Position numbers and translations under genes: made by a program. Source: Methanothermococcus sp. SCGC AD-155-E23 (GTDB taxonomy: Archaea; AGJL01; Methanococci; Methanococcales; Methanococcaceae). Taken from it: 36,797 bases of DNA. Numbering within the stretch: position 1 is the first letter of the stretch; each line of letters starts with the position of its first letter. The notes under the pieces are model-generated. The model was not told where the DNA came from and made no database searches. It was given only the letters and a program-made list of their open reading frames with translations. This document shows, piece after piece, positions 2,450 through 28,256 of the stretch. The stretch is taken from the NCBI GenBank assembly GCA_019561615.1, contig JAHEQA010000045.1, positions 35,740 to 72,536 on the forward strand, in the 5' to 3' direction.

Positions 2450-3409
2450 ATGGAACCCTTTGACAAGGATATCCTATCTCTCATTGATAGAGAGTTAAAT
2501 AGATATTTAGAGGGCGAGGGTACTATATACAAGGCCTCTAGACATCTTCTACTGGCAGGAGGTAAGAGGATAAGGCCCTATCTCACAGTTATTACCTATA
2601 TGTTAAAGGGGGAGAGGATAGAGGAGGTACTTCCTGCAGCCCTTGCAGTTGAGTTGATCCACAACTACACCCTTATCCACGACGACATAATGGATAACGA
2701 CGACAGGAGGAGGGGAATACCCACTGTTCACGTAGTATATGGAAAACCCATGGCTATCCTTGCAGGAGATCTCCTCTATGCAAAGGCCTTTGTTGCAGTG
2801 TCAGATATAAGAGATTCTAAAAAGGCCCATGAAGTCCTTAAGGTACTCTCCAGATCCTGTGTAGATGTATGTGTGGGACAGGCCATGGATATGGAGTTTG
2901 AGGAGAGGGAGAATATTACCATGGAGGAATACCTGGAGATGATCTCCAAGAAAACTGGTGCCCTTATTGTAACCTCTGTGGAGATAGGTGCCATAATAGG
3001 GGAATGTTCCCCCGAGGAGAGGGAGGCCCTCAGGGAGTACGCCAAGAGGATAGGTCTAGCCTTCCAGATACAGGACGACATCCTAGACCTTATTGGCAAT
3101 AGGGATAAAATAGGGAAGCCCATAGGTAGTGATATAAGGGAGGGTAAGAAGACCCTCATAGTTATACATGCCCTTCAACATCTTCCAGAGGATAGAAAGA
3201 GAAGACTCTTGGAGATCCTTGGAAAGAGAGATGCCAGGGAGGAGGAGATAGAGGAAGCTATTGAGATACTTAAAGACTCCATAGAATTTGCCAGGGAGAT
3301 GGTAAAGAGGTATGTTACAGAGGCCAAAGAGTATCTAAAAATATTTGATAAAAATAAGAGGAAAAAGTTAGAGGATATAGCAGATTTTATTATGGAGAGG
3401 GTGTATTAA
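2450..3409 (+). CDS. idsA: Short-chain polyprenyl diphosphate synthase (FPP/GGPP synthase)
   Basis: Condenses isopentenyl diphosphate with allylic diphosphates to make farnesyl and geranylgeranyl diphosphate, the side-chain precursors of archaeal lipids. The 319-aa protein has the first Asp-rich motif DDIMD at 78-82 and the second, QDDILD, near 214, plus the GGKRIRP substrate-binding motif at 37-43. Tyr73, five residues before the first Asp of DDIMD, is an aromatic at the chain-length position, which fits a short-chain or bifunctional enzyme; exact product length is inferred only. A GGTGA site sits four bases before the ATG. The gene is 27 bp behind RNase J, so probably co-transcribed. Its stop overlaps the convergent radical SAM gene by 4 bp. 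Confidence 0.93.
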   Translation: MEPFDKDILSLIDRELNRYLEGEGTIYKASRHLLLAGGKRIRPYLTVITYMLKGERIEEVLPAALAVELIHNYTLIHDDIMDNDDRRRGIPTVHVVYGKPMAILAGDLLYAKAFVAVSDIRDSKKAHEVLKVLSRSCVDVCVGQAMDMEFEERENITMEEYLEMISKKTGALIVTSVEIGAIIGECSPEEREALREYAKRIGLAFQIQDDILDLIGNRDKIGKPIGSDIREGKKTLIVIHALQHLPEDRKRRLLEILGKRDAREEEIEEAIEILKDSIEFAREMVKRYVTEAKEYLKIFDKNKRKKLEDIADFIMERVY

Positions 3410-4287
3410 AAGAAGGGATAGTACTCCCTCTTTATTACAGGCACCTCTGAGAAACAGTCCAGGGTCATGGAGTTAAGAAGGTACCCATCTACACCCTTTA
3501 GATTAACTAGTAGACATCCCTTGATAGTTACCTTGATATCAGGTGCCCTCTTCCCCATCTCATCTACTAGAAGTAGGAGGTCCCTTACTCTTCCAACACC
3601 TTCAACGTTACATATGCCCTCCAACCTATCCCTGTTTCCCCTGTGAACTATCAGGTGGTGTACCATTATCTCCTTAACCTTACTCTCCTTACTTAAGATT
3701 TCAGAGAGTTCTATTAACTCATTCCTGTTAAAGCCTGGGATATACACACATCTAACTATGGTGTAGAGATACTTGGAGGCTATTTTTATATTCTCCAGTA
3801 TCCTCTCAAAGGTTTTAGACCCAGTTATTTTCTCATGGGTCTCTGGGGTGGAGGCACTTAGACTTACCATGAGGATATCCAGCCCTAGGTCTTTAAACTC
3901 CCTTATTAAATCTTTATCTAGATTTACCCCGTTTGTCTGGAGGTCACACCTTAAGTTAAGTGATTTTGTAAATTCAATAGCCCTTTTAACCTTCTCTGGA
4001 TAGAGTAGAGGTTCTCCGTACTGACTAATAGTTACAGCTGTGTAATTTTTAGTATCTGGATTTTTAGGATCTATACCGTATATACCCTCCTTTACTTTAA
4101 GTAACCTGGAGTAACAGAATATACAGTTATGTTGGCACCTCTGGGTAATCTCTATAGAGGGGTGATGATAGGGGTTAGGATTACTTAAGTCTAGACCTTG
4201 ACAGCCTATACAGTGTTTTGAAACCCTTAGATTGTTTACAATATCCTCTAACCTATCACAGATTTCATGCCTGAGAAGTATCTTGAT
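3406..4287 (-). CDS. Radical SAM protein with apparent ATC start codon
   Basis: Radical S-adenosylmethionine enzyme of unknown substrate, 293 aa if begun at 4287. The 4Fe-4S motif CxxxCxxC is at residues 51-58 (RCQHNCIFC), preceded by CIGC at 26-29 that may bind a second cluster; SQYGEPLL is the usual GE-type SAM-contact segment. The frame is open from just before a GGTGA site at about 4291-4296, yet contains no ATG, GTG or TTG upstream of the iron-sulfur motif. The first in-frame ATG is about 139 codons in and would delete the cluster site. The codon at the standard distance after GGTGA is ATC (4285-4287). So it is either a non-canonical start or a one-base change from ATG. It is 31 bp downstream of rpl14e, probably in one transcript. 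Confidence 0.75.
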   Translation of the reverse strand: MKILLRHEICDRLEDIVNNLRVSKHCIGCQGLDLSNPNPYHHPSIEITQRCQHNCIFCYSRLLKVKEGIYGIDPKNPDTKNYTAVTISQYGEPLLYPEKVKRAIEFTKSLNLRCDLQTNGVNLDKDLIREFKDLGLDILMVSLSASTPETHEKITGSKTFERILENIKIASKYLYTIVRCVYIPGFNRNELIELSEILSKESKVKEIMVHHLIVHRGNRDRLEGICNVEGVGRVRDLLLLVDEMGKRAPDIKVTIKGCLLVNLKGVDGYLLNSMTLDCFSEVPVIKREYYPFF

Positions 4288-24630: not shown

Positions 24631-25068
24631 ATGCCTATGGGAGATCTGGAGAAGTACCTAACCTCTACCCCTGTAAAGGAGATTATGACCACCGATGTTA
24701 TATACGTCTATCCAGAGGAGGGCATAGTAAAGGCCTTTGAAAAACTTTTGAAGTACAGGATAAGCTGTCTACCTGTAGTGGACAGGGATGGAAAGATTGT
24801 AGGTATAGTTACCACCACAGATATTGGACACAACCTCATAGAGGACAGATATACCTTGGATACTACAGTTGGAGATGTAATGACTAAGGAGGTAGTCACC
24901 ATAAAACCAGAGGAACCTGTAATTAACGCCATAAAAAAGATGGATGAGTATGGAGATAAGGGGGAGATCATCAATCAACTACCTGTAGTAGATGAGGATG
25001 GAAAATTGATAGGAATAGTATCCGATGGAGATATAATAAGGTTTTTATCAAGGTGTATAAAAAAATAA
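24631..25068 (+). CDS. CBS-domain pair protein
   Basis: A 145-aa stand-alone Bateman module. The two CBS domains cover about residues 14-70 ([19 protein letters not shown] ... GIVTTTDI) and 80-143 ([18 protein letters not shown] ... [11 protein letters not shown]). Such pairs bind adenine nucleotides or SAM and regulate partner proteins; no catalytic domain is attached, and the partner cannot be read from the sequence. Two ATGs (24631 and 24637) are possible starts, neither with a strong ribosome-binding site, which suggests coupling to the acidic protein upstream. It is convergent with the Hmd paralogue. Confidence 0.87.
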
Positions 25069-25088: not shown

Positions 25089-26117
25089 TCAGGAGGTAAG
25101 AAATTTTTTTTTACATCTATTTATTACTCCATCTGCTGCAGCACCACCAACTGTTCTTCTAATCTCCTCTACCAGGGCCTGGGAGGCTACTATACTAACT
25201 GGTTTTACCTTGCACCTCTCTACCTCCTTACTAAACTCCTTACTTAAGTTGGATAGTACATGTATTGCAGATTCCAGGTCCTCCTGTTCTTCCAGTAACT
25301 TGCTAGCCTTGGCATTTTCAATTAATAGATCTATATCTAGGGCCTTTACCAGACCTCTAATTCCAGAGGTCTCCAGTATGGCAGAGATGGCCTGTAATAC
25401 GTACAGGACCTCCCTTTCAGAGATCTTTTCAGAGTCCTCCGTTATTAAAGACTTCATCCTGTAGTAATTTAGGATACCACTTAAAGTTACAGTAGTCATA
25501 TGGGTAGGTAGGCCTGTTATTAGGGGTACCAGATCTATAGGTTTGACAACTACCTCCTTATTGATACTCTTTATCAGCTCTATACACCTGTTGAATTGCT
25601 CCTCTGTGGAGTACTCCTCCCCATCTAAGGATCTATATCCCACTATATACTTGGAGTACATAGCAGTACCTGGGATGGCATTTGGACAGGTGGAAACTAA
25701 TCCCACATCCTTCCTCTCCAACCTTAACTCCCTCTCTATGTTGGAGTATATCATTATTACAGGGGTTGAATCGCATATGGCAATAGTGGAGTCCCTGGGA
25801 ATATGTTGAAGAATACTCTTTATGGATTTTATTGTACTTTCACTAAAGGGTCTAGTTATAAACTGTACCTCTCCATGCTTTGCAGCCTCTGTATCCTTGT
25901 CAACAACCTTTACACCTGCCTCCTCTATCTTTTCCCAGAGCTCCTTATCCATTACATCCCTCTCAGGTTCAGAGAGTACAACGTCATGGCCAGCTTTGGC
26001 AAACTCTATTGCCATTGCTCCTCCACCAAAGGGAGGTTCTCCTCCCAGTTTCTCATGGAGTTTTAACTCTTCTAGATAGAACTTCTGATTCCCTGCTCCA
26101 TATATAGAAACCTTCAT
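25089..26117 (-). CDS. Hmd-family paralogue (HmdII/HmdIII-like)
   Basis: Related to the iron-guanylylpyridinol hydrogenase Hmd, which reduces methenyl-tetrahydromethanopterin with H2, but of the paralogue class with start MKVSIYGAGNQKFYLE. The 342-aa protein has an N-terminal Rossmann domain (GGEPPFGGGAMAIEFAKAGH) and the Hmd helical domain. Cys115 (ICDSTP) lies where Hmd has the iron-ligating Cys176 (M. marburgensis numbering). The usual S-x-H-P-G-A-V-P segment reads STCPNAIPGT, so the conserved His (201 in Hmd) appears to be Cys144. Paralogues of this type are thought to bind the cofactor or tRNA synthetases rather than catalyse; that role is from literature memory. It starts at ATG after GAGGTG. 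Confidence 0.82.
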   Translation of the reverse strand: MKVSIYGAGNQKFYLEELKLHEKLGGEPPFGGGAMAIEFAKAGHDVVLSEPERDVMDKELWEKIEEAGVKVVDKDTEAAKHGEVQFITRPFSESTIKSIKSILQHIPRDSTIAICDSTPVIMIYSNIERELRLERKDVGLVSTCPNAIPGTAMYSKYIVGYRSLDGEEYSTEEQFNRCIELIKSINKEVVVKPIDLVPLITGLPTHMTTVTLSGILNYYRMKSLITEDSEKISEREVLYVLQAISAILETSGIRGLVKALDIDLLIENAKASKLLEEQEDLESAIHVLSNLSKEFSKEVERCKVKPVSIVASQALVEEIRRTVGGAAADGVINRCKKKFLTS

Positions 26118-26180: not shown

Positions 26181-26239
26181 ATATAGATATAGATATAGAT
26201 ATAGATATAGATATAGATATAGATATAGATATAGATATA
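26181..26239. repeat. Hexanucleotide microsatellite (ATATAG)n, about 9.8 copies
   Basis: Nine perfect ATATAG units and a tenth lacking only its G form a 59-bp perfect tandem repeat. It lies in the 163-bp spacer between the substrate-binding lipoprotein gene and the Hmd paralogue, directly upstream of the latter's TATA box. There are no spacers, so it is not a CRISPR. Such tracts are prone to slippage. Confidence 0.95.
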
Positions 26240-26280: not shown

Positions 26281-27438
26281 TTATTGTTCACTGTAGGTTA
26301 TGCCCTCAGCATCGAGGGCACTCTTTAGCATCACGTACTGTATAGAGACAGGTAGTGGGTAGCCTATTTTTACTACCTTCCCTTCCTTATGCTGCTCCTT
26401 TATCCAATTTACAAACTCCTCCCAGTTATTTGCAGGTATGTCCTTTCTTACAACAACTGCTGAACCTTCACTGTTAAGGGCACATACAATCTTACCCCTA
26501 GTACCCTTGTCTATGGCGAAGACAGCAGGAGGTACACCGTTAAGCCCTATATCTATCTGCTTCTGAGCCATTAGTGTCATTATCTTTGCCCCACCCTCCT
26601 GTACCAGTATCAATTCCACATCTGCAACCTTCTTACCATGACTGTAGAGGATGTACTTCTTCTTAGGTTCTACCTCCTCTAGGTATATGCCGTACTTCTT
26701 TTTAAACAACTCTGGATATGTGGCTGCAACGGAGAGTGCTGCATGGTGATCAGAGGGTAGGTGTGCCACCTTCAAGGTAGGTGTCTCTGAAGGTGGATTA
26801 GTTACAATATTGTTCTCTATCTCCCTAACTACCTGGTTGTAGATTTCAAAGTCAAAGAGTGTATCGAGTATTTTATTCCTGTCTGTAGTGTTCAACCTAC
26901 CACTTATAGCCCCCTGTTCCCTCATAACCTCTACGAAGTTCAAGGTTCCATTTACTATAAGTCTAGGATCTGTGATGTACTTGATAGTAGGTATGGACCT
27001 CTCCTCTACCTCCCTATCAACTCCAAGCCACCTGGCACAGGCCTCTACTGCCAAGGTCTTGTTCTTCTCCATCTCCCCTGTTGCCAGGATGATCAACTTC
27101 AAAAATTCCTTGGCAGCGTAATTCTTATTCTTTAGGGCATCCTCTGAAACTACCATTACACAGCAGGGGTGATTCTTCCACATCCCCTTTGGAGGGAGAT
27201 CTCCACTGTAGATAACTACCTTCCCTATACCCTTACTCTCTATTACGGCAGGTGTAGGTTGCCATGCGATTACTGCATCAAGTTCCCCAGTACTTAAAAG
27301 TTGTGGCATTGTTTTCTGTCCTTTACAGTTTACAAGTTTTACCATGGTGGTCTCTGTAGTACCCCCTCCAATACATCCTGCAAACATCACCCCTAGAATA
27401 AGGAGCCCTACACTAAGGAAAGTCATCAACCTCTTCAT
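26281..27438 (-). CDS. Substrate-binding lipoprotein (SsuA/TauA/NMT1-like) with circularly permuted halves
   Basis: Predicted extracellular, lipid-anchored binding protein of an ABC importer, 385 aa. The signal peptide ends in lipobox FAGC (Cys22). Residues 32-205 (MVKLVNCKGQKTMPQLLSTG, then ELDAVIAWQPTPAVIE) resemble the second half of an SsuA-type fold; a Pro/Ser/Thr linker (about 210-220) follows; residues 221-385 (TLKVAHLPSDHHAA, QIDIGLNGVPPAVFAI, KIGYPLPVSIQYVMLK) resemble the first half and stop at GITYSEQ, just where MVKLVN would normally continue. Order is thus second half, then first half. No ABC permease or ATPase is adjacent. The ligand is unknown; sulfonate, nitrate or thiamine-precursor types are all possible. 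A TATA-like GTTATATATTTTATGG lies upstream. Confidence 0.8.
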   Translation of the reverse strand: MKRLMTFLSVGLLILGVMFAGCIGGGTTETTMVKLVNCKGQKTMPQLLSTGELDAVIAWQPTPAVIESKGIGKVVIYSGDLPPKGMWKNHPCCVMVVSEDALKNKNYAAKEFLKLIILATGEMEKNKTLAVEACARWLGVDREVEERSIPTIKYITDPRLIVNGTLNFVEVMREQGAISGRLNTTDRNKILDTLFDFEIYNQVVREIENNIVTNPPSETPTLKVAHLPSDHHAALSVAATYPELFKKKYGIYLEEVEPKKKYILYSHGKKVADVELILVQEGGAKIMTLMAQKQIDIGLNGVPPAVFAIDKGTRGKIVCALNSEGSAVVVRKDIPANNWEEFVNWIKEQHKEGKVVKIGYPLPVSIQYVMLKSALDAEGITYSEQ

Positions 27439-27566
27439 AGTGTCACCTCATGGGCTTAATTATAGTAAAAGAGATTTACCATAAAATATATAACTCTTAC
27501 GATTTTTTTACATTAAAATAGAAATGAGATTTCGTATAATAAAAAGAGTCTATAAAAAAGAGAGAA

Positions 27567-28256
27567 TTACTGGGACTTTTTCTCCTCTCTTTTAAACTCC
27601 TCTATAAAGGATACCTTCTCAACATCTAACTTCTCCAATATCTTATCTGCAGCTATCTTTTTAAGAGCCCCTACATTCTTCAAGGGTATCAACATCTCTC
27701 CAGGTAGGATGATATTAACCTCCTTCTCCTTAACTTCCACCTTCACCTTCTCCACATCTAGGGCAGGTATAACAAGTTTCAACAACTCCCTTACTATATC
27801 CTCAGGTTTCTCCACTAACTCCTCTACCTTTAAAATGTATCTTACAGTTTTACCTGCCAACTGGTGGTTGAAGTCCACTAGAACCCTTCCCCCATCTACA
27901 CTTACTATCCTACCTACCTGGTTGTTTATAGTAACAGGCATACCTACAACTGGATTTATCCCGTGTTTCCTGAACTCTCTCAGTGGTACCAACTTGATCT
28001 TTGAGGGATCCCTCTTACCAAAGGCCTTTTCAGGTGGAAGCTCCAATTCCCTCTCCTCCCCTACCTCCATCTCCAACAGTGCCTCCTCTAGACCTGGTAT
28101 CAACATACCCTCTCCCACTATAACGGTAACTGGACCGTACTTCATCCCTGGGTTGTATATTCCCTCCTTTTTGGCCAACTCCTCATCTGTGGTATCGAAA
28201 AGTTTTCCATCTACATAACCACTGTAGGACACCTTTACAATGTCTCCCTTCTCCAT
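27567..28256 (-). CDS. FKBP-type peptidyl-prolyl isomerase (SlyD-like, long archaeal form)
   Basis: Folding catalyst and chaperone, 229 aa. The FKBP domain opens [20 protein letters not shown], with FDTTDEE and [20 protein letters not shown]; an insert-in-flap chaperone domain lies at about residues 80-130 ([14 protein letters not shown] ... [25 protein letters not shown]); the remaining 90 aa form the extra C-terminal domain of the long archaeal type. The ATG at 28256 follows AAGGTG, and a TATA-like TTTTTATAAAGG is at about 28272-28284 on the minus strand. Confidence 0.92.

Follow-up and report, generated by a model that had tools for sequence, protein, structure and literature searches.

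A permuted SsuA/TauA-type substrate-binding lipoprotein in the archaeal genus Methanothermococcus

Methanothermococcus species, heat-loving and methane-making archaea, encode a substrate-binding lipoprotein of the SsuA/TauA/NMT1_2 type in which the normally second half of the protein precedes the first. The gene described here occupies 26281..27438 on the minus strand (385 amino acids, stop codon included in the coordinates) of the analysed stretch of 36,797 nucleotides from Methanothermococcus sp. SCGC AD-155-E23, hereafter the window. Our results point to a working, exported, lipid-anchored type II binding protein that was circularly permuted once and in place within the genus, after the split of the lineage of genome G009, and most likely via tandem duplication and trimming; we give this reading a probability of about 0.9.

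The open reading frame begins with an ATG, and a Shine-Dalgarno-like GAGGTGA lies 4 bases ahead of it (27443..27449, minus strand); both were read directly from the sequence, and orthologues contain a GGTG-type site at the matching position. All further parts of the gene are likewise on the minus strand. Residues 1-21 (27376..27438) correspond to a signal peptide, a region that is homologous in permuted and normal-order orthologues, and are followed by Cys22 (27373..27375) of a lipobox ending in AGC, invariant across the permuted members; with these elements, the permuted protein is predicted to be exported. Alignment then delimits a short N-terminal linker, IGGGTTETT (residues 23-31; 27346..27372), and half B, MVKLVNCKGQ...REIE (residues 32-208; 26815..27345), which is normally the second half, as judged from 21 normal-order orthologues and from its match to positions 140-282 of the SsuA_fam profile. 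The old C-terminus is joined to the old N-terminus by a new internal linker, NNIVTNPPSET (residues 209-219; 26782..26814), a joined stretch that is absent from the aligned normal-order orthologues. Half A, PTLKVAHLPSDHH...GITYSEQ (residues 220-385; 26284..26781), normally the first half and aligned to NMT1_2 positions 3-149, closes the protein, its C-terminus being the new terminus created at the cut. Profile-profile comparison of half A gave an E-value of 2.2e-95.

The start region differs among relatives. Judging from the 5' ends of orthologues in L002-L013, ATT seems to be the start codon of most Methanococcaceae orthologues, with ATC in its place in L004 and L011 and a strong GAGGTGAT-type Shine-Dalgarno site ahead of it; in several of them (e.g. 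L005-L009, L012, L013) the stretch from the preceding in-frame stop to the signal peptide's hydrophobic core shows no ATG, GTG or TTG. The window gene has ATG where the orthologues show ATT or ATC. A conserved near-cognate start could hold translation low or regulated.

The initial annotation had proposed that the second half of an SsuA/TauA/NMT1-type protein stands ahead of the first, and the profile searches confirm this. The protein matches Pfam NMT1_2 (PF13379) with an E-value of 7.8e-28 and a score of 98.4 bits (cut-off 24.7), profile positions 3-149 falling on residues 217-381, whereas SsuA_fam positions 140-282 fall on residues 42-186, at a score (57.5 bits) below the curated cut-off of 163.5 bits, as is also the case for normal-order relatives. 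At the genome level, the NMT1_2 search recovered positions 151-243 and then 3-150 in one open frame. Thus, nearly the whole profile of this type II family (NMT1_2 in Pfam, SsuA_fam in NCBIfam) is present but is not collinear with the protein, and because positions 151-243 precede 3-150, the halves stand in B-A rather than A-B order. NMT1_2 matches in orthologues are collinear, extending over positions 2-250 in G016 and 6-231 in G009. Compared separately with profiles and with ordinary homologues, the halves gave swapped matches in both cases; BLASTP against the normal-order G016 protein yielded two separate, swapped matches (E 1e-92 at 79% identity and E 6e-72 at 57%), far beyond chance. A sequence search of the PDB returned nothing significant.

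From the alignment, the cut falls after ITYTE and before MVKL, in agreement with the breakpoint first put forward: permuted proteins end in ITYTE or ITYSE, and a short linker separates their lipobox from MVKL. At the new junction, a linker of about 9-16 residues, containing PP or AP in 7 of the 9 permuted members, connects the former C-terminal helix (LFDFxxYNEI) to the former first strand (PTLKVA). A model of the normal-order sister protein from G009 (pLDDT 90), whose fold matches are 3un6, TauA, SsuA, NrtA and CmpA, places the cut between a helix (172-183) and a strand (198-202), that is, within a loop of the parental structure. By analogy with the established SsuA/TauA fold, this loop would belong to the second lobe. 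AlphaFold2 run on the nine permuted sequences, a shallow 9-row alignment with an Neff of 1.5, produced a model with a pLDDT of 56 that had no fold match in Foldseek, the matches returned being meaningless. Given this low-confidence model, we infer from sequence conservation that the two-lobed type II clamp fold is retained in the permuted protein.

To examine distribution, we compared 36 genomes of the phylum, 12 of them from the genus. A full-length permuted gene is present in nine of the 12 Methanothermococcus genomes, the other eight proteins showing 61-86% identity to that of the window. Normal order was found in 24 of the 36 genomes, namely G009, within the genus, and 23 outside it; these 23 were compared for order only, and statements on shared neighbours apply to G009. 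Orthologues with both halves complete are thus known in both orders (9 permuted, 24 normal), and three genomes (G002, G010 and G035) gave no match. In a survey that covered 80 genomes from another archaeal phylum, none of the NMT1_2 genes listed had swapped order. Normal-order orthologues (G009, G016, G028 and others) resemble the permuted proteins in having the same cysteines, in being lipoproteins and, where checked, in being unlinked from ABC genes; they differ in their A-B order, in an anchor on lobe 1 and in lacking a B-A joining linker. The G009 orthologue shares mean identities of 75% and 56% over the two halves, together with downstream neighbours of the permuted locus. In G028, the normal-order orthologue (G028:C1:1119602-1120674; L075:9542-10677) contains a frameshift that leaves ORFs of 145 and 199 amino acids.

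The neighbourhood of the window gene includes an FKBP-type peptidyl-prolyl isomerase (27567..28256, minus strand; PF00254, PF22199, PF18046), an HMD-family protein (25089..26117, minus strand; PF03201, covering residues 196-289 only) and a two-CBS-domain protein (24631..25068, plus strand; PF00571; synteny family F1). The CBS gene is a marker in common with the normal-order G009 locus: it is followed downstream by F12, F13 and F14 both at the normal G009 gene and at the permuted genes of G011 and G003, and in several further genomes, that of the window included, it is likewise found downstream of the permuted gene. Here and in G008, the HMD-family gene lies between the binding-protein and CBS genes; G000 and G008 are the only genomes in the comparison where it adjoins the binding-protein gene. 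The HMD-family and binding-protein genes are separated by a repeat of the hexamer ATATAG, perfect over 9.8 copies (26181-26239). In G010, one contig ends at about this repeat and another runs past the FKBP gene into ribonucleotide reductase; with a contig end so near the repeat, we did not adopt the absence in G010 as proof that binding protein and permease were lost together.

The initial annotation had also raised an assembly error, in which two tandem full-length genes would have been collapsed into one chimeric ORF. The genome containing the window is indeed a draft (51 contigs, 86% complete), but an identical order and breakpoint occur in nine genomes that were assembled separately and come from different species, including G005, in one contig, and G011, in two. 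Since these nine independent genomes agree, and a normal-order orthologue with shared downstream neighbours exists in G009, we regard the collapse of a tandem pair as ruled out. A real but ancestral permutation, with G009 having reverted or regained a normal gene, is also very improbable. The gene tree groups the permuted genes in a single clade beside G009 (89/80), although support for this clade is moderate (44/0 with half A alone) and leaves the exact place of G009 loose. Against an ancestral permutation, normal order is seen in every outgroup and throughout the Pfam family, and G009, which has the same downstream neighbours, is the first to branch in the PurL tree, outside the permuted genomes (100/99). 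The simplest history is therefore a single permutation, in place, after the split of the G009 lineage.

As for the route, the best fit is permutation by duplication, a described model (PMC3320104), and an origin by tandem duplication is plausible but unproven. A normal gene would have undergone in-frame tandem duplication and fusion; half A of the first copy would then have been lost behind its signal peptide, as would the signal peptide of the second copy, and the second copy would have been truncated after half A. This would have kept signal peptide and leader in front and joined the old termini by a linker of about 9-16 residues, and as a consequence of the cut the lipid anchor would have moved from lobe 1 to lobe 2. 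Alternatively, the halves could have passed through fission and fusion, an accepted model as well (PMC3320104), or half A could have been excised and re-inserted behind half B, in either case dispensing with a tandem duplication. We consider this fairly unlikely, while acknowledging what speaks for it: no duplicated intermediate was found among the 36 phylum genomes, and the N-terminal and internal linkers, regarded in the initial annotation as alike and as a trace of duplication, are no more similar than shuffled sequence (same-genome mean 6.2, cross-genome 6.1, shuffled 5.6, with 9% of shuffles attaining the observed similarity), so that linker likeness was dropped as a sign of duplication. 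Conversely, no separately encoded halves were found at the permuted locus, and the split gene of G028 is a frameshift in normal order. Moreover, leader and signal peptide are homologous between the permuted and normal forms and remain in place, and the ends are trimmed at both cuts, all of which fits duplication with deletion.

Both halves are under purifying selection. Pairwise dN/dS was 0.04-0.33 in both halves wherever computable, and all permuted proteins preserve 76 of the 85 columns that are invariant in normal-order proteins, as well as the cysteines of NCKG and HPCC. The initial annotation had noted that no ABC partners are adjacent, which holds and extends to linked partners in general, but a permease and ATPase pair is encoded elsewhere in the genome: one TauC/SaoP-like permease and one TauB/SaoA-like ATPase (G000:C6; L090:3572-4330 and 2761-3570, respectively), followed by a winged-helix/PhoU gene (whole group, L090:1931-4330). 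These three genes abut or overlap in an operon-like manner, and the PhoU-like gene may be a regulator of the TauC/TauB-type transporter. Permease and ATPase are equally unlinked in the normal-order relatives G009 and G028, indicating that the permutation did not cause the lack of a neighbouring partner; the outgroups G037 and G059 have the genes of both transporter components in one cluster with that of the binding protein. G028 retains permease and ATPase despite its frameshifted binding-protein gene.

Binding protein, permease and ATPase are all nearest to one kind of transporter, Sao/Tau/Ssu. The Sao-type transporter (SaoX/SaoP/SaoA) is the best NCBIfam match of the ATPase and permease and the second of the binding protein, but we rejected membership as all three parts score below the curated cut-offs (SaoX 29 vs 300 bits, SaoA 286.8 vs 360, SaoP 208.9 vs 295). 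A cognate permease and ATPase appear to be present in the genome, their pairing with the permuted protein being suggested by these family matches. The permuted protein would act as a two-lobed clamp for a small anion-like solute, handing it to the unlinked TauC-type permease and TauB-type ATPase, and it is likely to serve the ABC-type import of a small solute resembling sulfonates or oxyanions. It is improbable that the protein has left transport and is a decaying or repurposed lipoprotein. The transporter genes are not linked to it, and no permease was seen in two permuted drafts, G003 (90% complete) and G006 (54% complete); yet dN/dS is low in both halves, the invariant residues are preserved, the normal-order orthologues are just as unlinked, and this is the sole gene of NMT1_2 type in the genomes searched.

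A natural permuted, lipid-anchored ABC-type binding protein is already known from Treponema pallidum: TpMglB-2 (Tp0684), designated 'Type Ic', has a type I fold, binds glucose and changes conformation, and its authors speculated that its topology is tied to membrane anchoring (PMC4990184). Only about 100 residues are moved in TpMglB-2, with 13% identity to the counterpart in E. coli (PMC4990184), and for these reasons it was possibly acquired from another gene. The protein described here differs in being type II and archaeal, in the swap of near-equal halves and in having a normal-order orthologue in the same genus; it does not belong to 'Type Ic', which is defined through the type I sugar-binding fold, given that its normal-order sister matches type II SsuA/TauA/NrtA. 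TpMglB-2 was the only precedent that we found, and our search of the openly licensed literature, which was not exhaustive, gave no earlier report of the present case. What appears new is a permutation in the type II fold, one permuted binding protein of another fold type being known. Tentatively, this could be the first described natural type II (SsuA/TauA-type) permutant and the first case in which a single genus shows both orders in the same neighbourhood, possibly selected for the shift of its tether from lobe 1 to lobe 2, which would alter its seat on the transporter.

Circular permutations are usually inferred between distant relatives, when parent and route can no longer be traced. The orthologues described here, in parental and in permuted order, stand in a common neighbourhood within one genus, and identity per half reaches 79% across genera. 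With such natural protein pairs, the timing and route of fixation, the folding cost and the effect of a lobe-to-lobe anchor shift on transport become testable. They also call for caution, as permuted genes can escape order-dependent annotation and default structure prediction. Halves that were swapped once and have been kept in at least nine species constitute a rare natural experiment in protein rearrangement.
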